Shown piece by piece: positions 2,818 to 60,917 of a DNA stretch of 64,000 nt (positions are counted from its first letter, which is position 1; each line of letters opens with the position of its first letter). Made by a program: the position numbers and the translations under genes. Source of the stretch: a virus; the IMG/VR virus record IMGVR_UViG_3300021171_000010, positions 1-64,000 of that record. The stretch is one strand, 5' to 3'. The notes beneath the pieces were generated by a model. It saw only the letters and a program-made list of their open reading frames with translations. It was not told the origin of the DNA and made no database searches.

Positions 2818-2889
2818 AGCGGTGAGAATGGGATTCAACTTTGTCTCATAAGCAAAGCCCTGTAGGTTCGACTCCTACCTCCGCTACCA
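2818..2889 (+). tRNA. tRNA with CAT anticodon and shortened D-arm
   Basis: Acceptor AGCGGTG (2818-2824) pairs with CTCCGCT (2879-2885), one mismatch, then A and an encoded CCA. The D-arm is cut down to GAAT-GGG-ATTC. The anticodon arm is TTTGT-CTCATAA-GCAAA with canonical C32, U33, CAU, A37 and A38. The T-arm is GTAGG-TTCGACT-CCTAC. Length is 72. CAU could be elongator Met, initiator or Ile2 (lysidine-modified); the sequence does not decide. The small D-arm is unusual for a bacterial tRNA. Confidence 0.85.
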
Positions 2890-25343: not shown

Positions 25344-25358
25344 CCCACTATTAATTGT

Positions 25359-42715: not shown

Positions 42716-42885
42716 AAACTAAACTGACAGAGAAGCAAAAAACTGAACTAGCTGGGGTTGCAAAATATTCTGCCGCCTCAGCGACTGATTCACCGTTTTG
42801 GAATGATGTGCTGCAGCACCTGGAAGACAGCCACGCGAAGCGGCAAGCACAGATTGAGCCTCGCAAACTGAAAGGAAACTATTAA
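42712..42885 (+). CDS. Small helical protein after the giant gene
   Basis: 57 residues. ATG overlaps the giant gene's stop (ATGA). It begins MKTKLTEKQKTELAGVAKY, includes SPFWNDVLQHLEDSHAKRQ and ends ERKLKGNY-like. It is a charged, helical protein, and the stop is 3 bases before the next ATG. No family recognised. The tight coupling makes it likely to be real. Confidence 0.5.
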   Translation: MKTKLTEKQKTELAGVAKYSAASATDSPFWNDVLQHLEDSHAKRQAQIEPRKLKGNY

Positions 42886-43581: not shown

Positions 43582-43917
43582 ATTCTCACTGCTGAGAAAT
43601 GTGCCTTCGGCGGTCATGCCCAACTTTTGGGCGATGGCAGAAAACTCCGGTCCATGTCCTGGCACCGGGCAAGCCGCATGACAGAGCTCGTGCAATAAAA
43701 ATTGAAGCATCTGGCGCCGGCCGGGGAATTTCTTACTAATGACGACCACGTTCACCGCACGGTGAAACTCCCCAAAATAGTGAACATGCTGGCAGTCTCC
43801 CAGGAACACGCGCAGCCGAGTAGGTAGCGGGTGCCCGATTCGAATGAACTCGCCGCGCATTAGCTTTACTGCGCGGCGTAGCCATTTTTCCTTGAGCGCT
43901 CGTCTAGTGAGAGGCAT
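43477..43917 (-). CDS. SprT-like metallopeptidase, copy 1
   Basis: 146 residues. FLLHELCHAACPVPGHGPEFSAIAQKLGM holds the HExxH zinc site and the downstream His-x-Pro-Glu-F of SprT-like/wss1 folds. FHRAVNVVVISKKF precedes it. Cysteine pairs of the zinc ribbon usually following in SprT are absent. The C-terminus (RRSPRSRGARLKV) is basic. It is the last gene of the leftward unit and overlaps the rightward unit head-on by 105 bases. It could clear host protein cross-links or process a protein. Confidence 0.75.
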   Translation of the reverse strand: MPLTRRALKEKWLRRAVKLMRGEFIRIGHPLPTRLRVFLGDCQHVHYFGEFHRAVNVVVISKKFPGRRQMLQFLLHELCHAACPVPGHGPEFSAIAQKLGMTAEGTFLSSENLDDWLHDCVQQSAGTRRSPRSRGARLKVRHSRIS

Positions 43918-44386
43918 CTGGAAAATTTAAAGCCGCGAAATCACCAAAAAGTTTTTGTGCCGCGGCATCGTAAGCCTTGGCGGCCTCTACTTCATCATCG
44001 AAGTATCCTAAGTGTTTCTGGCAAGCATCAAGGACAATATATGCTCGCCAGCACTGGTCCCTTCGATACCAGCTCACGCCTTTGAAGCGACTGGTTCGTT
44101 TGCCTTGACGCGGTAAAATTTGATAACGCACGTTTTGAGCATTAGTGCAGACTCGTAAATTATCAAACCAGTTGTGCAGGCCATTGCCATCCCAGTGATT
44201 CACTTTTGCGGAATCCGGCGCGTTTACTAGCCATCTATGTAAGTAAACGAGCGAACCAGCGATGCGCGCTCTGGCATAAATAGTTTTCTCTCTTCGGTCC
44301 GCATGCCACTTATGAAGATTAACACTAGCAAACACCGAATCATCCACCAAGGCAACTAATCCCTGAGAAAGGGGAACGACTTTCAC
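43904..44386 (-). CDS. AP2-HNH homing endonuclease (copy 2)
   Basis: 160 residues, with GLVALVDDSVFASVNLHKWHADRR at the N-terminus, the HNH part (LHRWLVNAPDSAKVNHWDGNGLHNW) and the AP2 part (FKGVSWYRRDQCWRAYIVLDACQKHLGYFDDEVEAAKAYDAAAQ, FAALNFPD). In this copy the second HNH residue lies in NHWDGNG instead of D-H-K/A-D-G. It overlaps the metallophosphoesterase stop by 4 bases and the SprT start by 14. Confidence 0.88.
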   Translation of the reverse strand: MKVVPLSQGLVALVDDSVFASVNLHKWHADRREKTIYARARIAGSLVYLHRWLVNAPDSAKVNHWDGNGLHNWFDNLRVCTNAQNVRYQILPRQGKRTSRFKGVSWYRRDQCWRAYIVLDACQKHLGYFDDEVEAAKAYDAAAQKLFGDFAALNFPDASH

Positions 44387-45654: not shown

Positions 45655-46246
45655 TTTTAGTTTCAACACCGTTTTTTTCCAACCATTCGTGAGTAAAGGG
45701 AGTCTGCCGGCCGGCAAAGGCTTCGTCAAAAGCGAACAGACATTGCTCAACTGTAGGGCCGATGCCCACCAAGCAGGTAGGCGAATTCAAATCCCCTTTG
45801 AAAGCGGCCCAGTCGCCTGTTTTCAACCGCACCAGGGTAGGATTCAACCGAGTATGGGGCGAGGAAATTTCTAGAGAGGCTTTTTTCTGCGCTTCCAGAC
45901 TTTCCAGGTTCAGCTTGATGGCTGCCTTGTAGTCGGCCTCGACCTGCTTTTGAAATTCGCTGTCCCACCGCGCGCTGTCATCCAAAATCGCATCCAGGCG
46001 TTCACACACCTTGATAAAAGTGTTCTCTGCAGCGACAAGGGCTTCCCCAGGCAACGCCTTTTCGGCGGAGGGCACGGAAGACTCATTGTATTCCATGTTC
46101 TGTGCCTTCACGTTACAGGCGGTAATCATCATGCCGATGATTTGCAAACAGGTGTTCACCTGCTGCTGAGTCGCCAACTCCCGCATCGAAAGCTGAATTT
46201 GTGGAGGATTCACGATTTGATTCTGCCTAAATGATTGATTGCCCAT
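45500..46246 (-). CDS. Hypothetical 248-residue protein, C-terminus doubtful
   Basis: Reads MGNQSFRQNQIVNPPQIQLSMRELATQQQVNTCLQIIGMMITAC, then a helical middle (FIKVCERLDAILDDSARWDSEFQKQVEADYKAAI) and a compact part ending VEQCLFAFDEAFAGRQTPFTHEWLEKNGV at about residue 197. The remaining 50 residues are Asn/Pro/Arg/Ser-rich and coincide with the HTH start of the metallophosphoesterase in another frame, so they look like a shifted read. One A fewer in the A7 run at about 45667-45690 would fuse the two genes. The function is unknown. Confidence 0.55.
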   Translation of the reverse strand: MGNQSFRQNQIVNPPQIQLSMRELATQQQVNTCLQIIGMMITACNVKAQNMEYNESSVPSAEKALPGEALVAAENTFIKVCERLDAILDDSARWDSEFQKQVEADYKAAIKLNLESLEAQKKASLEISSPHTRLNPTLVRLKTGDWAAFKGDLNSPTCLVGIGPTVEQCLFAFDEAFAGRQTPFTHEWLEKNGVETKNEQAPLDKNRNANPDATPLPGKDRKRNRRSPRPPSLPSDGEDSSSSPTGGA

Positions 46247-46718
46247 ACTTTAAAAAGTTTGTCCTCGCAAATTCTCCAAAAAATTTCCGAGCCGCAGCAT
46301 CATATGCCTTAGCAGCCTTTTCTGCCGTGTCGAATCTTCCAAGGTATTTGAGCCGATTGTTTACTCGAATACTAGCTTGCCACATCCCATTATGCCAGCT
46401 AACGCCCTTGAAACCGGAGGTATTGTTTCGGCTCATACCCTTGTTTTGCTGATTTTGGTGCCGAGTAACACGAAGATTATAGCGCTGATAATTTAGAGAA
46501 TTTCCATCAGCATGGTCTCCTTGTGTTTTAGGATTATCAAGTCCCAAAATTAAACGATGCATCAGGATAAGCTTACGCATGCCTTTGCATCTAATACTGC
46601 GCGCGGCATAATATCCGCTATTCACTTCCATTGCATACCAATTCCATTGGCTGAGCCATTCAAAATCAGCATCATCAACTAAAGCAAATTGACCCTTTGT
46701 CAAGGGAATCTGTTTCAT
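46227..46718 (-). CDS. AP2-HNH homing endonuclease (copy 3)
   Basis: 163 residues: IPLTKGQFALVDDADFEWLSQWNW, the HNH part (LMHRLILGLDNPKTQGDHADGNSLN) and the AP2 part (FKGVSWHNGMWQASIRVNNRLKYLGRFDTAEKAAKAYDAAARK, FARTNFLK). It overlaps the RuvC-like stop by 4 bases and the start of the 248-residue protein by 20 bases. In this copy the final motif is TNF instead of LNFP. Confidence 0.9.
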   Translation of the reverse strand: MKQIPLTKGQFALVDDADFEWLSQWNWYAMEVNSGYYAARSIRCKGMRKLILMHRLILGLDNPKTQGDHADGNSLNYQRYNLRVTRHQNQQNKGMSRNNTSGFKGVSWHNGMWQASIRVNNRLKYLGRFDTAEKAAKAYDAAARKFFGEFARTNFLKYGQSII

Positions 46719-47227: not shown

Positions 47228-47884
47228 CTAGAAGTCGGAATAAAGAACGTGTCTCGCGAGTAATTTATTTCTGATTTTCTTGAGTGCGCTGCCGTGAATA
47301 TGCCGCACCGCCTCACAGGTCACACCCAGCTTTTTGCCAATGTCCGTAAGGGTGAAGCCGCTCTTGTAGTGCAGGTCAATCACCATCGCCTCGCGCTGCG
47401 ATAAAAGCTTAAGTAGCGGAGCGACCAAGGCCCACTGTTCCCGGAGTTTGACGGTTTTAAAATCTGGGTCTGCTATCTCACCAGTTAGGACTTCCACATC
47501 CAGAGTCTGCGTATCGGGGTCATTACTCATGCACAGCGTGTCTCTCAACTCCTCGCGCGAAACTGTGAAGCCTTTTTTAATCACTTTCTGAGTATTGAAA
47601 TATTCCTTCACCGCGCCACGGAGGTGTGCCTTGCTGAAAGCAAAGAACCGCGCCCAATTCGGCTTGAACCGCCGGGCAGCATTCAGCATGGCGCCATAGC
47701 ACAAACTCAAAAGTTCGGCGTCTGAAATCGCGGCCCCGCAAACCCGCTTGGAATACTTGACCGCCTCGCGCATATTGTGCAGCACTAGCTTGTTATGCGC
47801 AGTTGCGGTGCCCCGCTTCGCCAGGGCATTTTCTTGTGCAGTGGTCAGCTTCTCTTCAGGAAATCCGTCACAGATGTCGGTCAT
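47228..47884 (-). CDS. Sigma-70-like factor
   Basis: 218 residues from ATG 47884 (MTDICDGFPEEKLTTAQENAL), which overlaps the helicase stop (ATGA); the frame is open upstream only inside that gene. AVKYSKRV, ELLSLCYGAMLNAARRFKPNW and FFAFSKAHLRGAVKEYF match sigma region 2 including the -10-binding helix. LSQREAMVIDLHYKSGFTLTDIGKKLGVTCEAVRHIHGSALKKIR is a region 4 helix-turn-helix for the -35. It likely redirects host RNA polymerase to a class of phage promoters, perhaps late ones. Confidence 0.8.
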   Translation of the reverse strand: MTDICDGFPEEKLTTAQENALAKRGTATAHNKLVLHNMREAVKYSKRVCGAAISDAELLSLCYGAMLNAARRFKPNWARFFAFSKAHLRGAVKEYFNTQKVIKKGFTVSREELRDTLCMSNDPDTQTLDVEVLTGEIADPDFKTVKLREQWALVAPLLKLLSQREAMVIDLHYKSGFTLTDIGKKLGVTCEAVRHIHGSALKKIRNKLLARHVLYSDF

Positions 47885-50099: not shown

Positions 50100-50582
50100 T
50101 CAGGGGAAATTAAGCACCGCGAAGGCACCAAAATATTTACGAGCAGCGGTATCATAGCATTCGGCAGCTAATCGTAAATCTCTAAAATATCCCAAGTGCT
50201 TCTTTTTACCGTTCACCTGTATTTGCACCACCCAACTTTTATTGCTAATTTTCCACGAGACGCCCTTACGCCCAGAAGCATTATCGATACGCAAGCGCTG
50301 ATTTTGATTGTTGTTCGTCCTAGTGGCTACTCTTAAATTATGTTCCCTATTGTTAAGGCCATCGCCATCCCAATGGTCCCCCTCAATTTTGGGATTTTTA
50401 ATGCCTAAAATCAGGCGGTGCATTCTTATTTGAAGCTGCTTGCCGTTCGGCCCCGGAACATTCCGCACTGCATAGAAAGTTTTTCCGTGCTTCTGGGTCC
50501 ACCACTTCCATTGATTGAGCCAAGAATAGTTCCAATCATCTACAATAGTAGATTTACCTTGCGTAAGCGAAATGCGTTTCAT
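50100..50582 (-). CDS. AP2-HNH homing endonuclease (copy 4)
   Basis: 160 residues: ISLTQGKSTIVDDWNYSWLNQWKWW, HNH (RMHRLILGIKNPKIEGDHWDGDGLNN), AP2 (RKGVSWKISNKSWVVQIQVNGKKKHLGYFRDLRLAAECYDTAARK) and the end AFAVLNFP. It overlaps the polymerase stop by 4 bases. Unlike the others it ends 2 bases before the next start without overlap. It sits between polymerase and primase-helicase, a classic site for homing genes that target replication genes. Confidence 0.9.
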   Translation of the reverse strand: MKRISLTQGKSTIVDDWNYSWLNQWKWWTQKHGKTFYAVRNVPGPNGKQLQIRMHRLILGIKNPKIEGDHWDGDGLNNREHNLRVATRTNNNQNQRLRIDNASGRKGVSWKISNKSWVVQIQVNGKKKHLGYFRDLRLAAECYDTAARKYFGAFAVLNFP

Positions 50583-52555
50583 TTACAATAGTGAGAAACG
50601 GCTTTCGCCTCTGCGGCCAAAGGGAAATTGGGCGCCCAGTCAGGTGGCGTAGACATGTAATTCTCAATGTCTTCAGGTGACACGTCTAAATCAACCTCTA
50701 AAATGTTTTCATCGTGAGCTGTCCATAAACTTGTTAGCCCTGCTTTATGCGTGCGAACTACGGTAGACGCAAAGAAATCTCTAGCCACGGCTTGCACAAT
50801 GTTCTCTGTCAGCTTACCACCGTAGCTGGGAACGCGCCGACCGCCCACCTCAGCGGTATATTCCGTTTTCATCCAGGGCTTGCCGTCTTTCTTACTCTTC
50901 TCCATGCGGCCCTGCGCGCGCACGTTCTTGTAAATCATTTTCCTGCCATTCGGCAAGTTCATCACAAAGTCTCCGCCCACTGAGCTCCGAAAATTCTCCT
51001 CTAGCTTTTGCCACATTGCTGTGATAGTAGGTGAGGCAGCGCGAAAGTCTCTGACCAGTTTCCGAGCGAAAGCCCCATAGCCCGGCACCTTAGTGGTAAC
51101 GTCAGTGAAAGGGTCAACGATTTCTTCGAACTCCGGGTCAGTTTCGGTAAGGTCCATGCCGGATTCTTTGAGCGCAGTGGCGATGAACTTTTCCCAGCCG
51201 GCTTGATACCCGAGTTGCAGCACCTGGATTTTGATGAGCTTATATTCATTGGTAGACTTGTCCATCTTGCCACCGGTATAACCAAAGTTTGCCCTCGCAA
51301 AAGCTTCGTAAACTGACAGGCCGGAACGCACCTCTTCCAGCATTTTTCTATTACCAGACAACCACGCCAGCACTCTCGGCTCGATTTGCGCAAGGTCGGA
51401 GACAATCATTTTCTTGCCTGGCCGGGGAACGAAAAGCGCCCGGAAGTCCAGAGCGAATCTAACTTCGTCGGGCCACTTGCCAGTTTTGCTGTGCTCCTTT
51501 ATATAGCGCGCAACTGCCTTGTCATCCTGCTGCAGCAATCCGGATTGCAAGCCGAAAGCAGGATATCGGCGCATGTTCTGAAAATTGATTTTGTTATCGC
51601 CGCTCCACCGGCCGGTATGGGCGCCCCAATACTTGAGACCGAAAGGTATCGTGCCATCCGGCCGTAACCGAGACTTCATAGTCAAAAAGCTTTTGTAAAG
51701 CTTATTGATAGACCGCCATGCGGTGACAGCGAGAATCCAGGGATGCTGCGGTGCATAGAGTTTTTCCCAGGCATCATACTCCTCCTCACTCTCAGCCTTA
51801 ACGGGACAGCAAGGTATGCCAACGCGCCGGCACTGCTCCGCGATGCATTTTGAGCTAGTGGGCGAGAGTTTAAAATCATCCCAGTCTTCGTCATCTGGGT
51901 CTTGCATCCACGGAATCATTTTTTCCGTATTGGCTTTCATCTCGTGCGAATCGCAGATGTAGCGGTTCAGCAATTCAACGTCCACCTGTATGCCGCGGAG
52001 ACCTTGGTCAATCGTAAGATTAGAAAGGATGCGTTCATCTTCACTCCATTTGTGGGCGTGGTCGGTCCAAATTTTGTGCGGCCAGTATGCATCCCGGCGC
52101 GCGTAAGCAAGCATGGCGGTCTGCTGCTCCGGTGTGAAGTCTTGGGGCCAGCGCTTACCTTCAGCGTCTGCGCGTTCCGCCTTGCTGACCCGAACCCCAT
52201 AAAGCGCTTCAACCGCGTTATCCAGGGCTCGCTGATTGCAGAGAAAAGAAGTGAGATTCGCAGTGCAGTGCCATTCCGCCGGCGTGAATTTGGGGATGAA
52301 CTGCCTGCGCTGCATCTCGGAGATTACGGAGAAATCGAATTTCTTGTTGTGTGAAAGCAAGACCCGACCCTCAAGAGCGCTCCAGGTCATGTCCCTGGGA
52401 TGCCCGGCCCAGCAAGTTTCGCCATCCGTCACCGAAACCATATAGCAGTCAAAGAGCTCATGCCGGCAATACTGCTCGTCAATCAAGCTCTTGATGGAAT
52501 ACTTAAGCTTGGGAGCGTAATACGTTTCCGTATCAATCAGGATGGGCGGCGGCAT
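50579..52555 (-). CDS. DNA polymerase, family A
   Basis: 658 residues. The 3'-5' exonuclease has DTET (residues 8-11), LSHNKKFDFS and YARRDAYWPHK (exo III-like). The polymerase has motif A VSDLAQIEPR (about 383-392), motif B KIQVLQLGYQAG (about 445) and motif C TAHDENILE (HDE about 611-613). No 5'-3' nuclease domain. It replicates the phage genome. The start ATG 52555 follows a hairpin; its stop overlaps the AP2-HNH gene. Confidence 0.93.
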   Translation of the reverse strand: MPPPILIDTETYYAPKLKYSIKSLIDEQYCRHELFDCYMVSVTDGETCWAGHPRDMTWSALEGRVLLSHNKKFDFSVISEMQRRQFIPKFTPAEWHCTANLTSFLCNQRALDNAVEALYGVRVSKAERADAEGKRWPQDFTPEQQTAMLAYARRDAYWPHKIWTDHAHKWSEDERILSNLTIDQGLRGIQVDVELLNRYICDSHEMKANTEKMIPWMQDPDDEDWDDFKLSPTSSKCIAEQCRRVGIPCCPVKAESEEEYDAWEKLYAPQHPWILAVTAWRSINKLYKSFLTMKSRLRPDGTIPFGLKYWGAHTGRWSGDNKINFQNMRRYPAFGLQSGLLQQDDKAVARYIKEHSKTGKWPDEVRFALDFRALFVPRPGKKMIVSDLAQIEPRVLAWLSGNRKMLEEVRSGLSVYEAFARANFGYTGGKMDKSTNEYKLIKIQVLQLGYQAGWEKFIATALKESGMDLTETDPEFEEIVDPFTDVTTKVPGYGAFARKLVRDFRAASPTITAMWQKLEENFRSSVGGDFVMNLPNGRKMIYKNVRAQGRMEKSKKDGKPWMKTEYTAEVGGRRVPSYGGKLTENIVQAVARDFFASTVVRTHKAGLTSLWTAHDENILEVDLDVSPEDIENYMSTPPDWAPNFPLAAEAKAVSHYCK

Positions 52556-52612: not shown

Positions 52613-52963
52613 TTACCGTGTTGCTCGCAGGGTGCAACCCACAGAGGGCTGTTTTTGGACTTTCGACTGTATGAGCCTTGCGATTGCATCATTGAGCGCA
52701 GCCATAACCTTATCAGAAAGCGCGCCCGTCACACAACAAGCATTTTCATCCAGCGGAAGAGGCTCATGCAGGGGCGTGGGCCACTTGTTTCGAATCTCTC
52801 GAATAAAGGCCTCGACGTCTGCGCGCACTTCGTTCTGGAAGTCTTCCCCAACCCGGGTGAATTTGCCTGCCCGAAACTTCTGGGAGCACGCCAGGGCGTG
52901 ATTGTGAATGGCTGATTCATTCAGCAGCCGCAGAGTCGCAAGGTCAACAAATTCCGTGCTCAT
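52613..52963 (-). CDS. Hypothetical helical protein
   Basis: 116 residues: MSTEFVDLATLRLLNESAIHNHALACSQKFRAGKFTRVG, then EDFQNEVRADVEAFIREIRNKW, then LDENACCVTGALSDKVMAALNDAIARLIQSKVQ. It is helical with a Cys pair. It overlaps the SprT-like gene (upstream) by 4 bases. I recognise no family. Its position just before the polymerase suggests a replication accessory protein. Confidence 0.55.
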   Translation of the reverse strand: MSTEFVDLATLRLLNESAIHNHALACSQKFRAGKFTRVGEDFQNEVRADVEAFIREIRNKWPTPLHEPLPLDENACCVTGALSDKVMAALNDAIARLIQSKVQKQPSVGCTLRATR

Positions 52964-53613
52964 TCGTCTTCGCCGTCTCCTTCCAATTCTTTCGGGATTT
53001 CAAACGCCATGGCCTGTTTGTTGCAAGCACACAGCGGGGCGCCAACTTCTTCCAGCCATTTTCGAGTGATGCGAACATTGCAACCGCACTCGCCGCATTC
53101 CGCCTTGATTAGCCGGGTGGTCTGTTTCTTGTCCAGCCGAAAACCCGGCTGGAGGGCTGGGTGCGGATAATCTCCAAGCCTCGCCTGAGTCATTAAGCGG
53201 AGTTCTTGCATCAGCGATTCGCCGGCGTGCGTAGCGGTCATCTTGCCCTCAAGTCCGACCGCCAGGGCAGCTTTCTTGAAGACCTTGTTGTGCTTTTCCT
53301 TGCAGCCTACTACGGCGTGCACCAACTCATGAACCAGCACTGGCAACACCCCGGCCTGCGCCTCTGTCACACTGGCCGTAAGGCGAGGGCTGATGAAAAT
53401 GTGGCAGGCTTTGTCCTCGCTCGCCTTTTCCGGCCAACATTCCCCGATTGGGTATTTGCGGGTGCCTGTGCCGCCACGGCTAGGCCAGCCGCAGGATACG
53501 TGCAGTTTCGCCGGTATTTCATAACCGGCCGTCTTGAAATGCGTCCGAAGCAAATCGGTCGCAGCGATTAGCCAGCCCTCGCGGGTGGCATGTTTTGGTA
53601 TGGTTTTACTCAT
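52960..53613 (-). CDS. SprT-like metallopeptidase, copy 2, with zinc ribbon
   Basis: 217 residues from ATG 53613 (MSKTIPKHATREGWL). A TTG start at 53622 is also in frame. LVHELVHAVVGCKEKHNKVFKKAALAVGL gives HExxH (about residue 94-98) and the downstream zinc His. The C-terminus has ECGECGCNVRI and PLCACNKQ, the C4 zinc ribbon of SprT-like proteases. It is related in role but not closely in sequence to the gene at 43477. SprT/Spartan proteases repair DNA-protein crosslinks. Confidence 0.82.
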   Translation of the reverse strand: MSKTIPKHATREGWLIAATDLLRTHFKTAGYEIPAKLHVSCGWPSRGGTGTRKYPIGECWPEKASEDKACHIFISPRLTASVTEAQAGVLPVLVHELVHAVVGCKEKHNKVFKKAALAVGLEGKMTATHAGESLMQELRLMTQARLGDYPHPALQPGFRLDKKQTTRLIKAECGECGCNVRITRKWLEEVGAPLCACNKQAMAFEIPKELEGDGEDE

Positions 53614-53618
53614 AAAAA

Positions 53619-53804
53619 TCAAGCAGGAGAGCCGTAGGCTTCAATCCTCCAAACTCCCCGCACGGAAGTCTTTTGCACAATCCGAGACTGTGTAGGCAGC
53701 TCCGGGTGTCGAAAAGAGACGTAATCTGCAAACGTCCCGTGCCGAACCCATCCCTTTGATTGCAGATATTTTATTGCAGATTTTTTCGAACTGAATATGC
53801 TCAT
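53619..53804 (-). CDS. Hypothetical 61-residue protein
   Basis: MSIFSSKKSAIKYLQSKGWVRHGTFADYVSFRHPELPTQSRI, then VRGVWRIEAYGSPA. It reads as a compact alpha/beta miniprotein. It lies with 5-base gaps in the leftward unit. No family recognised; the amino-acid pattern and position support it as a gene. Confidence 0.5.
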   Translation of the reverse strand: MSIFSSKKSAIKYLQSKGWVRHGTFADYVSFRHPELPTQSRIVQKTSVRGVWRIEAYGSPA

Positions 53805-53808
53805 AAAT

Positions 53809-54006
53809 TCAACGAGTGCGGGGCTCTAAAGTAAGCGCGCCATTTTCCAGCAGGTTCCACAGCTTCAAAAGGGTTTTCTCATCGCCTTTACCAATACGAA
53901 TTCCGCCATGGAAACCCGCCTTGCGAATTTCTTCGCAAAACTCAATTCCGTTCCGGGCTAGCACTCCGCCACCTGCGTATCGCATCCAAACATTTGCTTT
54001 GTTCAT
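53809..54006 (-). CDS. Hypothetical 65-residue protein
   Basis: MNKANVWMRYAGGGVLARNGIEFCEEIRKAGFHGGIRIGKGDEKTLLKLWNLLENGALTLEPRTR: a short globular sequence with a Gly-rich loop and helix. It overlaps the upstream gene by 4 bases (ATGA). It is a small early phage protein without a recognised family. Confidence 0.5.
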   Translation of the reverse strand: MNKANVWMRYAGGGVLARNGIEFCEEIRKAGFHGGIRIGKGDEKTLLKLWNLLENGALTLEPRTR

Positions 54007-54263
54007 ATAAGGTCCCTCGGAAAGGCGGTATTGCGATTTTCGGCGGGGATTGGCAAACCAGGACCGGCGTAAGGGCTAGGCTGGTAATATCCAGTGAAAT
54101 TCTCCACAACCCAACACGGTGCCCAGCCAGCATGCAGAGTCCCATCGTCGCCGTGCCACATAAAGCCGTAGTGCGGCTCCGGCCCAAATTTGTCCACACA
54201 GGACACGACACATTCAAAACGTCCAAAACTGAATTTTTGACCAGCGCTTAATTTTGCATTCAT
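54003..54263 (-). CDS. Hypothetical 86-residue first gene of the replication unit
   Basis: From ATG 54263: MNAKLSAGQKFSFGRFECVVSCVDKFGPEPHYGFMWHGDDG, then WVVENFTGYYQPSPYAG. Cys pair, His/Trp-rich. A TTG further upstream at 54293 lies in the promoter, so ATG 54263 is used; the -10 box CATATT is only 12 bases before it. It should be translated from a leaderless mRNA. Coupled to the next gene by ATGA. No family recognised. Confidence 0.5.
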   Translation of the reverse strand: MNAKLSAGQKFSFGRFECVVSCVDKFGPEPHYGFMWHGDDGTLHAGWAPCWVVENFTGYYQPSPYAGPGLPIPAENRNTAFPRDLI

Positions 54264-54269
54264 GCCAAC

Positions 54270-54307
54270 AATATGGCATACCCGTTTAAACAACGCAAGC
54301 GGATTTT
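54270..54307 (-). promoter_or_regulatory. Early-type promoter, leaderless, copy A
   Basis: On the minus strand: TTAAAAATCCGC, -35 TTGCGT (54298-54293), 17-base spacer, -10 CATATT (54275-54270), six bases, ATG 54263. Copy B at 58909 has the same order and spacing to the base, including TTAAAATCCGC. Transcription would start at or next to the A of ATG. A strong terminator sits directly upstream (54328-54360), so this promoter opens the polymerase unit. GTTTAAAC lies in its spacer. Confidence 0.7.
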
Positions 54308-54327
54308 TAACTTTTTAGTTTCACTAA

Positions 54328-54360
54328 TGAAAAGGGCAGCTTGGATAATCCAAGCTGCCC
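54328..54360 (-). terminator. Strong intrinsic terminator of the upstream leftward unit
   Basis: GGGCAGCTTGGA (54334-54345) pairs with TCCAAGCTGCCC (54349-54360) around a 3-base loop, 12 perfect pairs. On the minus strand the stem is followed by TTTTC. It ends transcription of the gene at 54406 just before promoter A. Confidence 0.88.
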
Positions 54361-54405
54361 AGTGCGACGAATGGCTAGCCGTGTGTATGTGGGCCTAGTG
54401 GTCGC

Positions 54406-55242
54406 TCAATTTGCAAGAGCCTGCTGGGGCTTCAGCACGGTCTTGGCGAATTCCAGAAAGCTCTCTGTGCTCTTCTGGAAAGGCAAGCACACCGGCACCC
54501 AAGCTTCCTTGCCGCCGTTGTATTTCTGCAGCTTGGTGGTGGTGGCGTAGTTGTAGCTGGGATAACCGCCCAGGCGCAGGCAGCCCGTCTGGCGATGGGT
54601 GAAGAACACCTTCCGGGCGCCCTCAGTGTAGATAGCGCCTTTCATATTCCACCACGCCAGGGCGTATTTGAAACCATCCACATCGAAGGTGAAAATGGTG
54701 CCGTCATCCGCCACAACATCCGGGCGGCGAATCAAGGTAAGCGCTGTGGCAAGGGGCTGGAAATACAGCATTCCAGCAGCCTTCTTGAGCTGCCACTCGG
54801 ACCAATCGCAAGTTCCGCCGGCCGAAACGACTTCAGCTTCGCTGTTCACAATCATTCCACGCGCGGCCGAGCCTTCGATTTTCTGCACGTAGCGGGTATC
54901 CTTCCAGCCGAGCACAGTGATGATAACGGGCGGCGAAGCCGGTTGAACTACGCCGGTGGCGGGGTCAATCCGCGGAGGATTGAACAGAGGCAGCTTGCCA
55001 TCGAAAAGCAAGGTGCCGAGAGGAAACCGCCGGCCGAGTTCGCTCATGTTTTGGACGATAAGTATATGCGGAAGTATAATATCACGAAAGGTCGGGATAT
55101 AATCCCCGAGAACTGGACCACCAGGAGCCACTGCACGCGTGCCGGCCGCCGGAGTTGTGGCCACAGCCGTTGTAGCTGGTGTGGTAGGTGGCGCTACTTG
55201 TTCGACTGGGACCGCGCCGGGTCCGAATGTTACTTCACTCAT
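54406..55242 (-). CDS. Hypothetical protein next to a DUF2800-like nuclease
   Basis: 278 residues. Thr/Pro/Ala-rich N-terminus (VEQVAPPTTPATTAVATTPAAG), then a compact region IPTFRDIILPHILIVQNMSELGRRFPLGTLLF, VIITVLGWKDTRYVQKI, GTIFTFDVDGFKYALAWWNMKGAIYTEGARKVFFTHRQTG, a beta-rich oligonucleotide-binding-like profile. It follows the nuclease gene by 20 bases. In phages, DUF2800 nucleases often pair with an ssDNA-binding or annealing protein, so that role is suggested, not shown. Confidence 0.45.
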   Translation of the reverse strand: MSEVTFGPGAVPVEQVAPPTTPATTAVATTPAAGTRAVAPGGPVLGDYIPTFRDIILPHILIVQNMSELGRRFPLGTLLFDGKLPLFNPPRIDPATGVVQPASPPVIITVLGWKDTRYVQKIEGSAARGMIVNSEAEVVSAGGTCDWSEWQLKKAAGMLYFQPLATALTLIRRPDVVADDGTIFTFDVDGFKYALAWWNMKGAIYTEGARKVFFTHRQTGCLRLGGYPSYNYATTTKLQKYNGGKEAWVPVCLPFQKSTESFLEFAKTVLKPQQALAN

Positions 55243-55262
55243 TTTGTTTTTATGTTTTGTGT

Positions 55263-56507
55263 TTATGTGCTGCTTTTCTCCGTCAACTGACGTAGAAAAC
55301 TGTAGGAGTCTCCTCGCTCAACCGCGCCTGCTTCTTCCAGGGCCTTCTGGAATTCTTCCACGGTAGCCTCTTTGTAGCCGCGGGGCGTCTTCTCCAAAAT
55401 CTTATCTTCAAGGGTGCCGAAGCTCGCTTCAAGGCATGCTTGATATTCTTCCTCGTTCAAATATTTCAGGGCGACTTCCTTGAACTTCGCAAGGTCTTTA
55501 ATCTTTCGGCGCCCGCTCGTGGTCTCAATCTTGTAGCCGGGCGGAATCTTCGCGTCACCTCGAAGCACTCGATTTGTGACCTGCCGTTTAAACGCGCCAG
55601 TCCAAACTGCCATAACTTGGGCAAGCTCCATCGCGAGCTTTGTATTCTGCGGGTCTTGTATCTGCGTTGGCGTAATCGACTCCGGAAACGCTAGAGGATG
55701 AAACTTCTTTGCCACGCCCAAGGCAGTAGCGAGATTCGCCGGGCATCTACCGAGGTGGTCACAGAAAAGACACACCGGAGTGAACTGGCGCGCCAAAGAA
55801 AAATCTCCCAGGTGCTTTGCTTCGATTGCTCTTAGGCAGACGGTTTTAACTCGCCGATACAATTCGGGCGCCTGTTCGCGAGTGAACACAGCGTCTGTGA
55901 TGTAGTCCAGATGAGGCTGCTTAAACCAAAACCGAACCTTCTGAAGCTTGGCAAATCGTCTAAACAAACCCAGCGTGTAGGCGATGCCTTGAAGATTATT
56001 TTCAGCCGATTCAACCGCCCAGAATCCAAATTTATAGTCCACGAGTTCGGCGTATAATTCGTCCCAAGAGATGAATCCGTGGTCAATGTATCCGCCCGTT
56101 GTGCAATCAGCGTCTTCATATTTGCAATCGTCAATTGGCAAGTAAGTTTCTTTGAGCTCCTGGATTTGATACTTAGCGGGAACCGGTTGATTAACCGCCC
56201 AATCGTCACCCTTCGTATAGGCTTCTTGTGCCTGTTCCTGCATGAAAGCTCGCCGGGTAGCTACAAAATCCAGGCATTCCGCCACCGCCAAAGCGTCATC
56301 ATCTCCCAGTTGCGCGTTGTCTTCCTGCGAGTCCACCACCTTGTGCGCCCGGGTGCCGGCAGTTGAGCGGCGATGCACCAGACCGTCTGTCTTCGAATCG
56401 AAATCAGGACAGGCTTCCAAGCACTGCAGCTTGCTAGGTGACCTGGGATGATGCGGTCTTTCTTCCAGAATCCCAATGTTTTTGACTTCGAGGCCAGTGA
56501 CTTTCAT
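55263..56507 (-). CDS. DUF2800-like PD-(D/E)XK nuclease
   Basis: 414 residues. GTRAHKVVDSQEDN (H of the active site), TGGYIDHGFISWDELYAELVDYKFGFWAVE (the D-x-K core) and CLFCDHLGRCPANLATALGVAKKF (Cys cluster). A C-terminal helical region carries GTLEDKILEKTPRGY. The layout is that of RecB/Cas4-like phage exonucleases (DUF2800 family). It likely makes 3' ssDNA for recombination or repair with its neighbour at 54406. Confidence 0.8.
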   Translation of the reverse strand: MKVTGLEVKNIGILEERPHHPRSPSKLQCLEACPDFDSKTDGLVHRRSTAGTRAHKVVDSQEDNAQLGDDDALAVAECLDFVATRRAFMQEQAQEAYTKGDDWAVNQPVPAKYQIQELKETYLPIDDCKYEDADCTTGGYIDHGFISWDELYAELVDYKFGFWAVESAENNLQGIAYTLGLFRRFAKLQKVRFWFKQPHLDYITDAVFTREQAPELYRRVKTVCLRAIEAKHLGDFSLARQFTPVCLFCDHLGRCPANLATALGVAKKFHPLAFPESITPTQIQDPQNTKLAMELAQVMAVWTGAFKRQVTNRVLRGDAKIPPGYKIETTSGRRKIKDLAKFKEVALKYLNEEEYQACLEASFGTLEDKILEKTPRGYKEATVEEFQKALEEAGAVERGDSYSFLRQLTEKSST

Positions 56508-56513
56508 AAAATA

Positions 56514-56543
56514 AGTAAGGCCAGAATATCACTTCCGGCCTTA
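56514..56543 (-). other. Inverted repeat upstream of the nuclease gene
   Basis: GTAAGGCC and GGCCTTAC flank a 14-base loop (plus coordinates about 56515-56543). On the minus strand it is followed by TTATTTTATG, that is, the nuclease ATG. It could be a weak terminator/attenuator or a protein-binding site. The 59-base gap holds nothing else. Confidence 0.4.
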
Positions 56544-56566
56544 CTCACTCAACTAAATTTTTGAGG

Positions 56567-56845
56567 TTACTTCACCTTGCACCACCTACCGCCACAGAAG
56601 TGCCAAGCTCCTGGCTTGACGTCCAACAGAGCCGAAGCCCGGGCGGCATTGCGGATTTCAAGCAGCCGTTGCCGAAGCTTGTAAAGCGCCAGTAGCTTAG
56701 TCTGCGTGACATACTGAGGAGAAACTCCAAGCTGCTTTGCGATTTGTGCGTCAGTCATCCGCTTTTCAGGCGGCACGATGTCATCCAGGGCATCGTTAAT
56801 TTCCCGGCCAATTTGTAACTTTTCTTTAAGTGTATGAGTTGCCAT
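56567..56845 (-). CDS. Helix-turn-helix protein (sigma-region-4-like)
   Basis: 92 residues. MTDAQIAKQLGVSPQYVTQTKLLALYKLRQRLLE forms a clear helix-turn-helix of the sigma-4/LuxR kind. The N-terminus (KEKLQIGREINDALDDIVPPEKR) is helical; the C-terminus (WHFCGGRWCKVK) has two Cys. It abuts the next gene with a 1-base gap. Probably a phage transcription regulator or terminase-small-subunit-like DNA-binding protein. Confidence 0.6.
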   Translation of the reverse strand: MATHTLKEKLQIGREINDALDDIVPPEKRMTDAQIAKQLGVSPQYVTQTKLLALYKLRQRLLEIRNAARASALLDVKPGAWHFCGGRWCKVK

Positions 56846-56846
56846 T

Positions 56847-57041
56847 TTAGTATTTGGACATCACGCGAGACTTGATGTCCTGAGCGGGTTTTCCAGTAGG
56901 ACGCCAATTACTGTGCTCGACTGCGTTTAGCAATCGTTTCTGGCGAGCCGCCTTTGCAGGCGTTGTGGATTTTGCTTTGATACCTCCCGGAGTCCGCACC
57001 TGGACCCGGCCTTTTCCAACAGATTTTATACGCACTGGCAT
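56847..57041 (-). CDS. Basic 64-residue protein
   Basis: MPVRIKSVGKGRVQVRTPGGIKAKSTTPAKAARQKRLLNAVEHSNW is a highly basic sequence (predicted nucleic-acid binder). Its start lies 16 bases inside the end of an AP2-HNH gene. It has no recognised family. Probably a small DNA- or RNA-binding phage protein. Confidence 0.5.
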   Translation of the reverse strand: MPVRIKSVGKGRVQVRTPGGIKAKSTTPAKAARQKRLLNAVEHSNWRPTGKPAQDIKSRVMSKY

Positions 57042-57532
57042 GTTTTAATGGTGGGAAAATTGAGCCGCGCAAACGAGCCAAAATATCTTGCAGCCAAAGC
57101 ATCATAAGCTTTAGCTGCCTCGATTTCATCAGTAAACAATCCTCCATAAATGTGAAGATAAAAATACCGAAGTTGCACAACCCATCGTTGTTTATCTGTC
57201 TTCCACGATACTCCACGAAAACGACTCGTTTTCCCAATTTTCAACTGGCGGAACGCAGAAGAATTTTGCTGATTAGAACAGGCCCTCAAATTCGAGCGAA
57301 GGCAATTTAAGCCATCTCCGTCTTTATGGTCTGTTTTTATTTTCCGGTCGGTAAGTCCCAAAATTACGCGATGTAAATAGCACTTTGTAAAGGAGCCGTC
57401 AGGTTTGACGGCGTGTCCGACCGCATAGGTGCGGCGTCCATATTTACGCGCCCACCAAGATTGCTGAGATACACGAACAAAGTCTTTTCGACTAACTCGT
57501 GCGAATCCTCCACTTGTAAGTAGTAATTTCAC
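57026..57532 (-). CDS. AP2-HNH homing endonuclease (copy 5)
   Basis: 168 residues from GTG 57532 (VKLLLTSGGFARVSRKDFVRVSQQSWWARKYGR); the frame is open upstream, but GTG 57532 overlaps the preceding stop as GTGA. HNH: LHRVILGLTDRKIKTDHKDGDGLNCLRSNLR. AP2: FRGVSWKTDKQRWVVQLRYFYLHIYGGLFTDEIEAAKAYDALAAR and FARLNFP. It overlaps the next gene by 16 bases. Its N-terminal DD motif is changed to SRKDF. Confidence 0.85.
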   Translation of the reverse strand: MKLLLTSGGFARVSRKDFVRVSQQSWWARKYGRRTYAVGHAVKPDGSFTKCYLHRVILGLTDRKIKTDHKDGDGLNCLRSNLRACSNQQNSSAFRQLKIGKTSRFRGVSWKTDKQRWVVQLRYFYLHIYGGLFTDEIEAAKAYDALAARYFGSFARLNFPTIKTCQCV

Positions 57533-57777
57533 GCTGCAATTCGCAAACCTAATTCTGCGCCGCGGTCTACAAGAGACCGAAGCTGTTGGTTGAGCGGCGC
57601 GCAAGACTGCCGCAGCGATTTAATGCTGGCTGCCTTTTTAACGGCGCCCAGTTCCTCGTCATTCTCGATACGCATTATCTGCACATCGACCGATGCTAAC
57701 TCTGCTTGAATCTGCTTGACTCGCTTCGGAATTCTCCGAGCTCGATTAGCCAGCAGGTGTTTTTTGGTATTGTGTTG
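57529..57777 (-). pseudogene. Frame-disrupted small gene, 3' part
   Basis: An open frame of about 82 codons without an ATG near its start: NTKKHLLANRARRIPKRV, then KQIQAELASVDVQIMRIENDEELGAVKK, then LNQQLRSLVDRGAELGLRIAA and TGA, which overlaps the GTG of the AP2-HNH gene (GTGA). Coding quality and the coupled stop argue it is real. It probably continues from the 39-codon ORF at 57746-57865 through a +1 shift at an A6 run. Either a recent mutation, a programmed +1 event or an assembly error. Confidence 0.5.
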
Positions 57778-57865
57778 TCATAAAAATAAACTGATTGAGA
57801 TTGCGAGCCAGATAAGCCGCCAGAGGCAAGCCCGGTCCCACCTCAGTTGAGAAAACGATTTGCAT
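57746..57865 (-). CDS. 39-residue ORF, 5' part of a split gene
   Basis: From ATG 57865: MQIVFSTEVGPGLPLAAYLARNLNQFIFMTTQYQ, then a new stop soon after an A6 run. Removing one A from CCAAAAAACACC would join it to the frame at 57529-57777 and give one ~112-residue protein. A second ATG at 57781 is in the same frame. The predicted domain has a hydrophobic segment followed by a charged helical half. Confidence 0.45.
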   Translation of the reverse strand: MQIVFSTEVGPGLPLAAYLARNLNQFIFMTTQYQKTPAG

Positions 57866-57893
57866 GGATGGAGTTGTCTATAAAGGCAAGGAT

Positions 57894-58436
57894 TCAATTG
57901 GCGAGCCTCAACATTTTCTGGAAAGTATCTTCACAATCCGGCGTGAAAGGAAAAGTGTTGGCCGGATTCACAAACTGGTCTGTCCGAATACGGTCAAAGA
58001 ACGGCACCACGATGTGCGGTGGAACGCCACGCTCATTACAGAATCGCTCAATAGTTGGCTTGGAAATACCAAGCTGGTAGTGAAGCTGAGCAACGCCCAC
58101 AGGAGTGGAGTCTATCCAAATTTCAACCTTCTTGGCCCAGGTATTGAGAAAAACCCCCTGTGCACCGCGCATACCGCAGTGCGCCGCTATGAGCCCCGCC
58201 CGGGCGCCCATACATTGAGCCCATCTCATATCGCCGGCCACGAATTCATGGGCATGCACCGTGTGATAAACAATCGGTGCACCTACCGGGATTGACTCCC
58301 TATGGGCGGCGAGAATAAGTGCATTTTCAAACTCTCTACTGCGCAGTCGGGACAGCTTTACTTCGTCCCGGGCCGCGAGAAGCTCCATGACCCTGGGGCA
58401 AGATTGCTGTGTATAAAGTTCTTGAAATGTATTCAT
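57894..58436 (-). CDS. Hypothetical protein with helical C-terminus
   Basis: 180 residues: MNTFQELYTQQSCPRVMELLAARDEVKLSRLRSREFENALILAAHRES, then GAPIVYHTVHAHEFVAGDMRWAQCMGARAGLIAAHCGMRG, and a C-terminus STPVGVAQLHYQLGISKPTIERFCNERG, which resembles a helix-turn-helix. It is coupled to the upstream gene (58433, 4-base overlap). It could be a DNA-binding protein, based on the last segment. Confidence 0.5.
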   Translation of the reverse strand: MNTFQELYTQQSCPRVMELLAARDEVKLSRLRSREFENALILAAHRESIPVGAPIVYHTVHAHEFVAGDMRWAQCMGARAGLIAAHCGMRGAQGVFLNTWAKKVEIWIDSTPVGVAQLHYQLGISKPTIERFCNERGVPPHIVVPFFDRIRTDQFVNPANTFPFTPDCEDTFQKMLRLAN

Positions 58437-58675
58437 ACGCCGGCGAAAAAGGATTCGATGAATTTGTCTCGCCGCTCTGCGGTGCGATAGCCGCGGACCT
58501 TGTTCAGAAACCGGATAGCCTTGCGGCCCTCCAAAAACACGGTGTTCCGGAGCTTGGCGGAGTGCAGCACCACTTCAGTGGCTGACGCCTGCGTGAAGGA
58601 GCAATGCCGGTTGTGGTTGTCTTCCACCTTCACAGGAGCTTTGTTCATTTTGATGATTGTTGGCAAGTCGAACAT
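58433..58675 (-). CDS. Hypothetical 80-residue protein
   Basis: MFDLPTIIKMNKAPVKVEDNHNRHCSFTQASATEVVLHSAKLRNTVFLEGRKAIRFLNKVRGYRTAERRDKFIESFFAGV: beta then helical, basic. A second ATG at 58648 is possible. It overlaps the downstream gene by 4 bases and follows the leaderless gene by 20 bases. No family recognised. Confidence 0.5.
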   Translation of the reverse strand: MFDLPTIIKMNKAPVKVEDNHNRHCSFTQASATEVVLHSAKLRNTVFLEGRKAIRFLNKVRGYRTAERRDKFIESFFAGV

Positions 58676-58695
58676 AAAACTGTTACGAGATAAAG

Positions 58696-58902
58696 TTAAT
58701 TGTTACGGGCCGGATGACGAGACGGTAAATAGTTATGCTTAGGGCGGTCTTCATCGGGAACTGCATCAGTGAGCATCGCCCGGGCGGCAATGACTCGACC
58801 CCGCAAAGCGATTCCCTCCGGGGATTGGAAGTCTTTCACAGTATCTTCTGCTACGGCAACTGCAGCATTCAACGCCGCCCATTCTGCTCTGTTTAATCTC
58901 AT
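58696..58902 (-). CDS. Leaderless 68-residue early protein
   Basis: MRLNRAEWAALNAAVAVAEDTVKDFQSPEGIALRGRVIAARAMLTDAVPDEDRPKHNYLPSRHPARNN. A helical protein with a disordered basic tail. Its ATG lies six bases after the -10 box of promoter B, so its mRNA should have almost no leader. First gene of the middle leftward unit. No family recognised. Confidence 0.55.
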   Translation of the reverse strand: MRLNRAEWAALNAAVAVAEDTVKDFQSPEGIALRGRVIAARAMLTDAVPDEDRPKHNYLPSRHPARNN

Positions 58903-58908
58903 GCCCAG

Positions 58909-58946
58909 AATATGACAGACACCACAACCAAAGGCAAGCGGATTTT
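58909..58946 (-). promoter_or_regulatory. Early-type promoter, leaderless, copy B
   Basis: Minus strand: TTAAAATCCGC, -35 TTGCCT (58937-58932), 17-base spacer, -10 CATATT (58914-58909), six bases, ATG 58902. It matches copy A (54270) in boxes and in spacing to the start codon. Its upstream element overlaps the stop of the SF2 helicase (58945), so it is embedded in the operon. Confidence 0.7.
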
Positions 58947-60441
58947 AACGATTTAAGGGCAGGTTATCCGGGCACCAGTCTGAATCAGTCAAAGTCATAA
59001 GGGCATCCAGGTTGTTTAGCTTACCCCGGACTGCACTCCAAATTTTCTTTTCTATTGTGCCAGCAGCGAAAAGCACTTTATAAAACGAATGAGATTTGCC
59101 GCTTTCCCTGGGAAGCCGGAAGAAAAGCTGGCGCATAGTCTCGGCAGAAAAGCATGGGCTCGCGATGCCGGCCCGGGGATGGCCGCCATGCAGGTCATGC
59201 AGCGACATCGACACCCCGCCGGCCTTGGAATTCACTATCAGTTTACGGAGGTGATTACTCTGGAAAGCGGCGAGGGTCTTCTCCCGGGTCTTGATTGTTG
59301 TGCCGTCGATAATGCCGGCACCGGGGAACTTCTTCAACAATTCTTCAATCGTTTGACGGTAGTTCACGAAAAACACCACTGATAATCCGCGGTCCGCATA
59401 GGTCTCGCCGAGCTCAGTCATAACCGGCACTTTTAGTAGCTCCACAGTCTGCTGCGCGCGCAGTATTTTGGTGAGCGGATGGTCCGGCGATTTATCATTT
59501 TCACTAGCATGCTGTTTTAGCGTTTCGACTGCTTCACGCATTATCCCATAAGCCCGGTCCATCTCTTCCGGCTTGTCCAAATCATAGAGTTCAGCGTCAA
59601 TCTGACAGGTGGGAAAACCGGGAATGCTTGCCACAGTCACTCTGACGCCACGAGCAGGAATAATCTGGTCCCTGATGGATTTCATAATTTCCAGTTGCCG
59701 GGACTTGCTAGCAAACCATTTCAAGCCACGCGTGTGCACATCGAACCGGACTTCCTGCTTCGCAAGCCAGCGTTTAAACGATGGGCGCCGCATTGCTGCA
59801 CCAAACTTTGTCTGCACTAATTCATCAGTGGAGTCATTATGTAAATCGAGAAGATAGCCGAGAGCTCGCATATCCAGGGGCGAGCTGGCCGGCGTAGCCG
59901 ACAAGCAAAGAGTCTTAATTCCTTGCCGCTTTGCCGCAAGACCGAGCTCGCAGTTCAAGGAATCGATACCGTTGAAGCGCTGCGACTCATCAAAAATTAC
60001 TAGGCGCACTGCTGGATTGAAAACGAAACTGCCGTAGTGGGCGCTAATTTTTTTAGTGACAAGGCAGTGAATTCCAGCCGGGTGGCAATAGCAAGGCACG
60101 AAGCGAGCGAAATCAACTTTGCACTGGCAATTCTCACACTGGAAATATTCCCGGGCTGCCCGGTATTCGGTCCAGGTGCCAAATTTTTGGTTTCCAGTGC
60201 GAAGAAGTTCATAATTGCAAAACGAAAACTTGTCATTAAAGGTCTCAGCAGCAAGGTCCCAGGCAGTCTTACTAATCTTAGGACCAACAATTAGGGCGGG
60301 TAGTTTTAACTGGGAGGCTACCCAGGCGCCCACGTAGGTCTTGCCGACTCCTCCATCTGACCAATCGACTACGGAGTCATGTTTCTGCAATAAAGTCAGA
60401 AGCTGCTCTGCAGGTTCGACTTGGTGAGGTCTTAGGGGCAC
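58945..60441 (-). CDS. SF2 helicase with Cys-rich insert
   Basis: 498 residues, probably from GTG 60441 (PLRPHQVEPAEQLL). Motif I SDGGVGKTYV (about residues 28-37), motif II FDESQRF (DEAD/DESQ), motif III LCLSATPASS. A zinc-type insert CENCQCKVDFARFVPCYCHPAG (about 98-120) is set between motifs I and II. C-terminal motifs V/VI: SKAGGVSMSL and RQLFFRLPRESGKS. It is a UvsW-like/SNF2-type DNA translocase. Its start lies inside the upstream AP2-HNH gene by 10 bases. Confidence 0.85.
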   Translation of the reverse strand: MPLRPHQVEPAEQLLTLLQKHDSVVDWSDGGVGKTYVGAWVASQLKLPALIVGPKISKTAWDLAAETFNDKFSFCNYELLRTGNQKFGTWTEYRAAREYFQCENCQCKVDFARFVPCYCHPAGIHCLVTKKISAHYGSFVFNPAVRLVIFDESQRFNGIDSLNCELGLAAKRQGIKTLCLSATPASSPLDMRALGYLLDLHNDSTDELVQTKFGAAMRRPSFKRWLAKQEVRFDVHTRGLKWFASKSRQLEIMKSIRDQIIPARGVRVTVASIPGFPTCQIDAELYDLDKPEEMDRAYGIMREAVETLKQHASENDKSPDHPLTKILRAQQTVELLKVPVMTELGETYADRGLSVVFFVNYRQTIEELLKKFPGAGIIDGTTIKTREKTLAAFQSNHLRKLIVNSKAGGVSMSLHDLHGGHPRAGIASPCFSAETMRQLFFRLPRESGKSHSFYKVLFAAGTIEKKIWSAVRGKLNNLDALMTLTDSDWCPDNLPLNR

Positions 60442-60917
60442 GGAAAATTGAGACGTGCGAATTCTCCAAAATATTTACGCGCCGCAACATCATAAGCCCG
60501 GGCCGCTTCTTCTGCCGTTTTGAACCGCCCTAAAACAATTGATTTATAGTTTACACAAATCATCCCCACCCAAGGGGTCTGGGGGCGTCCTTTACAAGCA
60601 GAAACTCCTTTATATCCCGATTTATTATTTCGACGAAGGCCTTGATTTGCGTGATTTTGTGAATTAGTTGCGGGACGAAGATTGTGTCGCTGATTATCTA
60701 AGCCGTTAAGATTTTTATGCTTCCCCTGAATTTTAGAATCCGTAAGTCCTAAAATTTGTCGATGCATTAGATAATTTTTGCCTTTCCATCCTTCCTTACG
60801 CATCGCATACCAAGAGCCTCGAAAACAAACCGCTTGCCATCTCCATTGATTTAGCCAATCAAAATCAGCATCATCAACAAACGCAACTTTGCCCCGAGTT
60901 AGAATAATCTGTTTCAA
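60432..60917 (-). CDS. AP2-HNH homing endonuclease (copy 6)
   Basis: 161 residues: IILTRGKVAFVDDADFDWLNQWRWQ, HNH (LMHRQILGLTDSKIQGKHKNLNGLDNQRHNLR) and AP2 (YKGVSACKGRPQTPWVGMICVNYKSIVLGRFKTAEEAARAYDVAARK, FARLNFPC). The usual D-H is G-K-H here, so the first catalytic His context has changed. It overlaps the small zinc protein by 4 bases and the helicase start by 10. Confidence 0.88.
   Translation of the reverse strand: MKQIILTRGKVAFVDDADFDWLNQWRWQAVCFRGSWYAMRKEGWKGKNYLMHRQILGLTDSKIQGKHKNLNGLDNQRHNLRPATNSQNHANQGLRRNNKSGYKGVSACKGRPQTPWVGMICVNYKSIVLGRFKTAEEAARAYDVAARKYFGEFARLNFPCP

Follow-up and report, generated by a model that had tools for sequence, protein, structure and literature searches.

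The window analysed here, a stretch of 64,000 bases, covers bases 1-64,000 of the 73,551-base virus record IMGVR_UViG_3300021171_000010 and carries, on its minus strand, two promoter copies (A and B) which share one layout down to the start codon of a small gene. We consider it likely that both are sigma70-type promoters, built from an extended -10 element (TGn-CATATT) and a TTGC-type -35 box, and comparison with related phages lends good support to the view that their transcription would begin at the A of the ATG itself. The pair had been read from the sequence alone as a dedicated early class, a view which proved too narrow: selecting by -35, -10 and distance, we found 4 leaderless-type starts in the present genome and 99 in 16 family genomes. 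The leaderless layout appears to be shared throughout the phage group, with genes in many places carrying it. The two promoters and their genes are the following:

54264-54310, minus strand: promoter A, with an TTAAAAATCCGC tract, -35 TTGCGT, a 17-nucleotide spacer including GTTTAAAC, TGC, -10 CATATT and 6 nucleotides to ATG.
54003-54263, minus strand: gene A, 86 amino acids, with its predicted leaderless start at 54263 (from the codon-use caller).
58903-58948, minus strand: promoter B, with an TTAAAATCCGC tract over the helicase stop codon, -35 TTGCCT, a 17-nucleotide spacer, TGT, -10 CATATT and 6 nucleotides to ATG.
58696-58902, minus strand: gene B, 68 amino acids, with its predicted leaderless start at 58902, where the frame has its earliest start codon (from the codon-use caller).

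Both copies were found where the sequence-only reading had placed them, with the identical spacing it had described. In copy A, TTGCGT (54298-54293) is followed after 17 nucleotides by CATATT (54275-54270) and after 6 more by ATG (54263-54261), while in copy B the same distances separate TTGCCT (58937-58932), CATATT (58914-58909) and ATG (58902-58900). The extended -10 is given by TGC (A) or TGT (B) just 5' of the hexamer and, additionally, the copies have in common AAAATCCGC immediately 5' of TTGC and GGCATGA around the start codon. A four-base Shine-Dalgarno (SD) match was found before neither gene A nor gene B.

The evidence that the layout reaches beyond these two sites comes from a family-wide count of the distance between extended -10 boxes and gene starts, the latter assigned from codon use and start codon alone (genes without 70 nucleotides upstream were excluded, namely 4 of 555 in the first set, 3 of 803 in the hold-out and 5 of 361 in the outgroup). 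In the first set of seven genomes (551 genes), which includes A, B and the site at 65,579 and is the source of the pattern, 16 genes have an extended -10 exactly 6 nucleotides from the start, the average for other distances being 1.5. Nine relatives (800 genes) served as a hold-out and gave 30 such boxes at exactly 6 nucleotides, against a mean of 2.1 and a maximum of 6 elsewhere; these nine were picked from the loci of the A-locus comparison described below, so that their A-locus sites are not new. With a TTGA -35 box, the same 800 genes gave 33 matches at 6 nucleotides and 15 at 5, the mean elsewhere being 2.1. The outgroup, formed by four phages sharing the SprT-like protein (356 genes), had no extended -10 box at 6 nucleotides. 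A separate pattern count gave, for matches versus reversed control, 40 versus 7 in the first six relatives, 83 versus 8 in the nine hold-outs and 55 versus 31 in six outgroup records.

The use of SD sites differs between the same groups. Four-base SD motifs at positions -17 to -4 precede 79 of the 551 and 144 of the 800 ingroup genes (57-60 and 80-96, respectively, in control windows), and 225 of the 356 outgroup genes (44-46 in control windows). SD motifs are, in other words, near background in the ingroup and dominant in the four outgroup phages.

A second comparison, restricted to the locus of promoter A, relies on three neighbouring genes:

54406-55242, minus strand: 278-amino-acid protein upstream of the terminator, used as locus marker gene; without family match, conserved in relatives.
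52960-53613, minus strand: SprT-like protein, encoded in the run that follows promoter A (phrog_6361, E 7.6e-47; PF10263 below cut-off).
58945-60441, minus strand: helicase-like gene upstream of B (PF00271, phrog_62).

Relatives were collected through the helicase (six contigs, 36-48% identity) and through the SprT-like protein, which gave 69 loci, or 47 after 22 near-duplicates were dropped. The marker gene lies upstream in 21 of these and was not found in 23; three (L103, L132 and L154, where the match lies too near the contig end) were placed in neither group. Promoters were scored blind to start codons, the start being an ATG or GTG that opens a reading frame of at least 30 codons. The top promoter fell 5-7 nucleotides from the start codon at 14 of the 21 marker-gene loci and at 1 of the 23 others (P 1e-5); one of the 14 (L100) is possibly wrong, its GTG opening just 30 codons. 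Matrices with a scrambled consensus, used as decoys, reached 14 in none of 187 draws (largest value 11; 13 of the 200 draws were skipped for reproducing TATAAT). The promoters seen at this locus in relatives include TTGACG-16-TACATT-5-ATG (G003), TTGAAC-16-TATATT-6-ATG (G005), TTGACA-16-TAGATT-5-ATG (G006), TTGACT-16-TAACTT-6-ATG (G007) and TTGCGT-16-TATCTT-6-ATG (L095), often preceded by a hairpin. The gene behind the promoter varies among relatives (in some the SprT-like gene itself comes first and is predicted to be leaderless), which means that the layout is what is conserved.

The third line of evidence is the base composition around the starts. In bacteria, transcription typically starts on a purine preceded by a pyrimidine. 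At the 99 sites of the 16 family genomes, the start codon is preceded by C in 51 cases and by T in 28, whereas among 1,252 other starts the figures are 260 for C and 529 for T (P 2e-10 for C). This C-rich position supports a first transcribed base at the A of ATG, as do the A-locus spacing and the 6-nucleotide peak; the start point which the sequence-only reading had expected is, in this respect, well supported by comparison. The 99 sites also have an A-rich tract 5-10 nucleotides before the -35 box, which may act like an UP element.

Taken together, these observations speak for a mechanism in which RNA polymerase at A and B would start on the A of the ATG and the mRNAs of both genes would be leaderless. 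Leaderless mRNAs are translated by direct recognition of their 5'-terminal AUG, and genes A and B would be translated in this way. Promoter A would provide a fresh transcript after the terminator, feeding a replication run that includes a gene for a phage sigma factor, and the likely order would be host sigma on A/B-type promoters first, with phage sigma later. Two features are of interest here:

47228-47884 (frame open to 48001), minus strand: phage sigma factor, 218 amino acids (PF04545 region 4, E 1.9e-11, 43.7 bits against a cut-off of 24.1).
25346-25352, plus strand: CACTATT box 7 nucleotides before the structural-block gene start at 25359; candidate second promoter class, a lead only.

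The sigma gene is also weakly matched, over residues 56-151, to RpoH of PDB entry 8hkc (E 5e-5, region-2-like). All 15 family records searched have a PF04545 match above the cut-off, and none of the 6 outgroup records has one. In the present genome the sigma gene belongs to the minus-strand run that follows promoter A, and it is plausible that host sigma acts on A and B before the phage factor does. It is unlikely that the phage sigma, rather than the host one, reads A and B: the conservation of the gene throughout the family speaks for such a role, but both copies resemble ordinary sigma70 extended -10 promoters, relatives carry TTGACA/TATAAT-like versions, and the sigma gene itself sits behind A.

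Of 224 orthologues of minus-strand non-structural (early) genes, 13 have sigma70-like starts with leaderless spacing, compared with 6 of 345 structural-block orthologues (P 0.015), and near-leaderless spacing is found at some structural genes too, with a different box. CACT(A/G)(T/A)T, 4-11 nucleotides before the start, occurs at 23 of the 345 structural-block versus 6 of the 224 early orthologues (P 0.05), 2 of 435 unassigned opposite-strand genes (P 8e-7) and 0 of the 356 outgroup genes (P 6e-8); this box was spotted by eye and counted on the same genomes, without a hold-out. Boxes of this kind were seen a few bases before structural-block starts at 25346-25352 and, ahead of the start codon at 42889, at 42877-42883, and in similar places in relatives. 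In three genomes (G006, G015 and G016), (G/C)A(A/C/G)(C/G)(C/T)T boxes with a TTGA -35 occur at 6 structural and 0 early orthologues, although the genomes are few. We would guess that the phage sigma reads CACT(A/G)(T/A)T, which would make it a candidate late-promoter element. Tentatively, there might be two classes of leaderless or near-leaderless starts, one of sigma70 type at replication and small genes and one, with CACT(A/G)(T/A)T, read by the phage sigma at structural genes, both adapted to a host lineage that makes little use of SD sites.

A further possibility, which we regard as improbable, is that A and B are real promoters with a short leader, because transcription begins, or the true start codon lies, a few nucleotides off. 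The choice of start site shifts by a base or two, and leadered versions exist at the A locus of G001, L102 and L112. These stand against the peak at exactly 6 nucleotides and the frequent C just ahead of the start; in gene B, moreover, no start codon precedes the ATG in its frame. Returning to the reading of A and B as sigma70-type promoters with leaderless starts, several points weigh against it. The -35 boxes are weak (TTGCGT and TTGCCT each have three of the six bases of TTGACA, at a spacing of 17, and homologous promoters of relatives carry TTGACA itself), and the -10 boxes of both copies begin with C, as do those of 20% of the family sites. At the A locus there is a leader of about 28 nucleotides in G001, and the distance from -10 to start is 23 nucleotides in L102, 12 in L112 and 9 in L105 and L106. 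Finally, no homologue of gene A or gene B is known except in an identical contig, and the gene starts were taken from our own codon-use caller.

The likeness of the pair could also have arisen by recent copying of a promoter cassette, or reflect a repeat without regulatory meaning. We hold this to be very improbable. In its favour, 36 of 51 aligned positions are equal, AAAATCCGC among them, and a block of this type is not needed by a sigma70 promoter. Against it, the shared blocks are all promoter-relevant while the spacers are unlike each other, and the same layout occurs with different sequence at other promoters of relatives; copying and function would, in any case, be compatible. The sequence-only reading had argued against a recent duplication of the whole region; outside a block of about 50 nucleotides no likeness is visible by eye. 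When the 15-mer TTAAAATCCGCTTGC was searched in viral contigs, 49 stretches were found, with CATATT correctly placed in just one, IMGVR_UViG_3300050821_020388, which is 100% identical over the compared 10 kb and gives no independent evidence; L026, flagged by the script in this search, was discarded as a chance hexamer upstream. A search for RNA families in 53,500-59,500 found none.

That A+T-rich stretches 5' of genes merely resemble promoters by chance is hardly credible, even though the core pattern with up to two mismatches is unremarkable (0.59 expected per shuffle, and at least two matches in 12 of 100 shuffles), given the exact pair and its rank among gene pairs (below), the A-locus comparison, the hold-out peak at 6 nucleotides, the C before the start codon and the absence of that peak in the outgroup. 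TTGC(G/C)T-N17-CATATT-N6-ATG occurs exactly twice in the whole record and not at all in the reversed control, and TTGCnT-N17-CATATT-N6-ATG likewise occurs twice in the window and 0 times in its reversed control. Over the 48 nucleotides before the starts, anchored at their ends, A and B are identical at 32 positions, the best of 3,741 gene pairs, with the runner-up at 24 (mean 12.3, standard deviation 3.2). On the exact-pair, shuffle and gene-pair tests, both chance and plain copying were rejected as full explanations. The part of the record beyond the window (64,001-73,551), where further copies had been thought worth seeking, holds no third exact copy but does hold looser ones at 65,579(-) and 68,288(-). 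The third leaderless candidate, at 65,579, is immediately followed by an RNA ligase gene (PF09414; 4267-5220(-) and 5217-5579(-) of L052).

The promoter A spacer contains a further element:

54284-54291, no strand assigned: palindrome GTTTAAAC, also present in the homologous promoter of several relatives; candidate operator.

This palindrome, seen for instance at 54284-54291 and, in L052, at 5237-5244, has 12 copies in the present record (0.96 expected), 10-17 in eight relatives and 0 or 1 in six others, and one outgroup genome also has 10. Most copies are intragenic and several lie in promoter spacers. As an operator of all leaderless-type promoters it was rejected as a general rule, being held by 7 of the 99 sites. 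We also saw, in different relatives, a promoter subtype with leaderless spacing in which GTTTAAAC overlaps or follows the -35 box (TTGCGTTTAAAC or TTGACGTTTAAAC), at 65365(-) and 53250(-) in G003, 24834(-), 29032(-) and 38919(-) in G008, and 54298(-) in the window; in this subtype the palindrome is possibly an operator.

To our knowledge, leaderless mRNAs are known mostly from a few bacterial groups and from single phage genes. The layout itself is that of the known 'TA-led' leaderless structure (PMC3160421, PMC12340547), and phage leaderless mRNAs have already been described. In TA-led bacterial genes a hexamer resembling the -10 box lies about 12 bp ahead of the start and there is no SD site (Zheng et al. 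2011, PMC3160421), and A and B resemble them in the position of the hexamer (CATATT ends 6 nucleotides before ATG), in the lack of an SD site and in a promoter taken to start transcription at the start codon. TA-led genes were described there for cellular genomes, whereas the present case is a phage group in which A and B carry CATATT, at odds with TANNNT in its first position, and in which the -10 is extended and a clear -35 is often present. In Deinococcus-Thermus, TANNNT near an open reading frame is a promoter for leaderless mRNA, and a -35 box at 17 bp raises expression (PMC12340547). The likeness lies in the -10 adjacent to the reading frame and the -35 at 17 bp; the difference is that those are bacterial genes with reporter tests, while the present starts are predicted ones in phages. 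The cI gene of lambda is a phage gene expressed from a leaderless mRNA (PMC3160421, PMC9031893), a single repressor gene as opposed to many genes in many related phages. Phage sigma factors which redirect host RNA polymerase are exemplified by T4 gp55 (PMC5312081), in a source which also mentions, as an aside, that many phage transcripts lack a leader; the likeness is a phage sigma-like gene together with a different box at some structural genes, although here the sigma is predicted and the box only a lead. In the literature covered, from which subscription journals were mostly missing, we came across no phage group described as using this layout widely together with scarce SD sites.

Because the layout is present at genes in many places and SD sites are hardly used, the host probably handles leaderless and SD-independent initiation. 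If this is true, these phages would follow their host's mode of translation initiation, the signature may help to guess the hosts of uncultured phages, and gene starts could be called better where SD sites are missing. The compact modules of promoter plus start, about 40 bp long, are directly testable. A tblastn search of 50,697 phage records gave no match for the helicase, for the structural-block protein at 16339 (the most conserved of its block; the label 'capsid' is presumed and was given by no search) or for the 644-amino-acid protein at 3996, whereas the SprT-like protein and the polymerase match many phages. In the genome collection, the 278-amino-acid protein had no relative, and the structural protein had one match, on a contig of a metagenome-assembled genome of Ca. 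Peribacteraceae (G023). This is likely a binning error, since three further contigs of the same assembly are also phages of the group (the contigs concerned are L093 and L215-L217). In 14 other Peribacteraceae genomes, the layout is weakly enriched (76 matches versus 17 in the reversed control).

With regard to the gene neighbourhood, two more features complete the picture:

54330-54360, minus strand: intrinsic terminator 5' of promoter A (hairpin of -24.4 kcal/mol, z -7.2, equalled in stability by none of 200 shuffles, then TTTT).
50579-52555, minus strand: DNA polymerase A, encoded in the run that promoter A opens (PF00476, phrog_17).

The strong terminator that had been noticed just upstream of copy A is confirmed by these values. 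The minus-strand run before it contains the helicase, an exonuclease-like gene and the 278-amino-acid protein, and the run after promoter A contains gene A (whose stop codon overlaps the ATG of the following gene), that small gene, the SprT-like protein, DNA polymerase A, an HNH-type gene, a 738-amino-acid protein (weak DUF5906 match, below the family cut-off), the sigma factor and a RuvC-like gene. For genes A and B, no Pfam or PHROG match was found and no relative other than in the identical contig, so that their coding status rests on codon use. At the other end of the window, a tRNA-Met (CAT) gene (2818-2889, plus strand) is followed by a terminator-like hairpin with a T run and by a promoter-like TTGCCC-18-TATGGT; considered as a candidate initiator, this tRNA seems by eye to lack the features of one. 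Six paralogues, at 3530-4003(+), 43904-44386(-), 46227-46718(-), 50100-50582(-), 57026-57532(-) and 60432-60917(-), matched the same relatives' genes in one search. They seem to be of the HNH/AP2 homing-endonuclease type, as an AP2 domain and a weak match to HNH were seen in the member that was scanned (43904).

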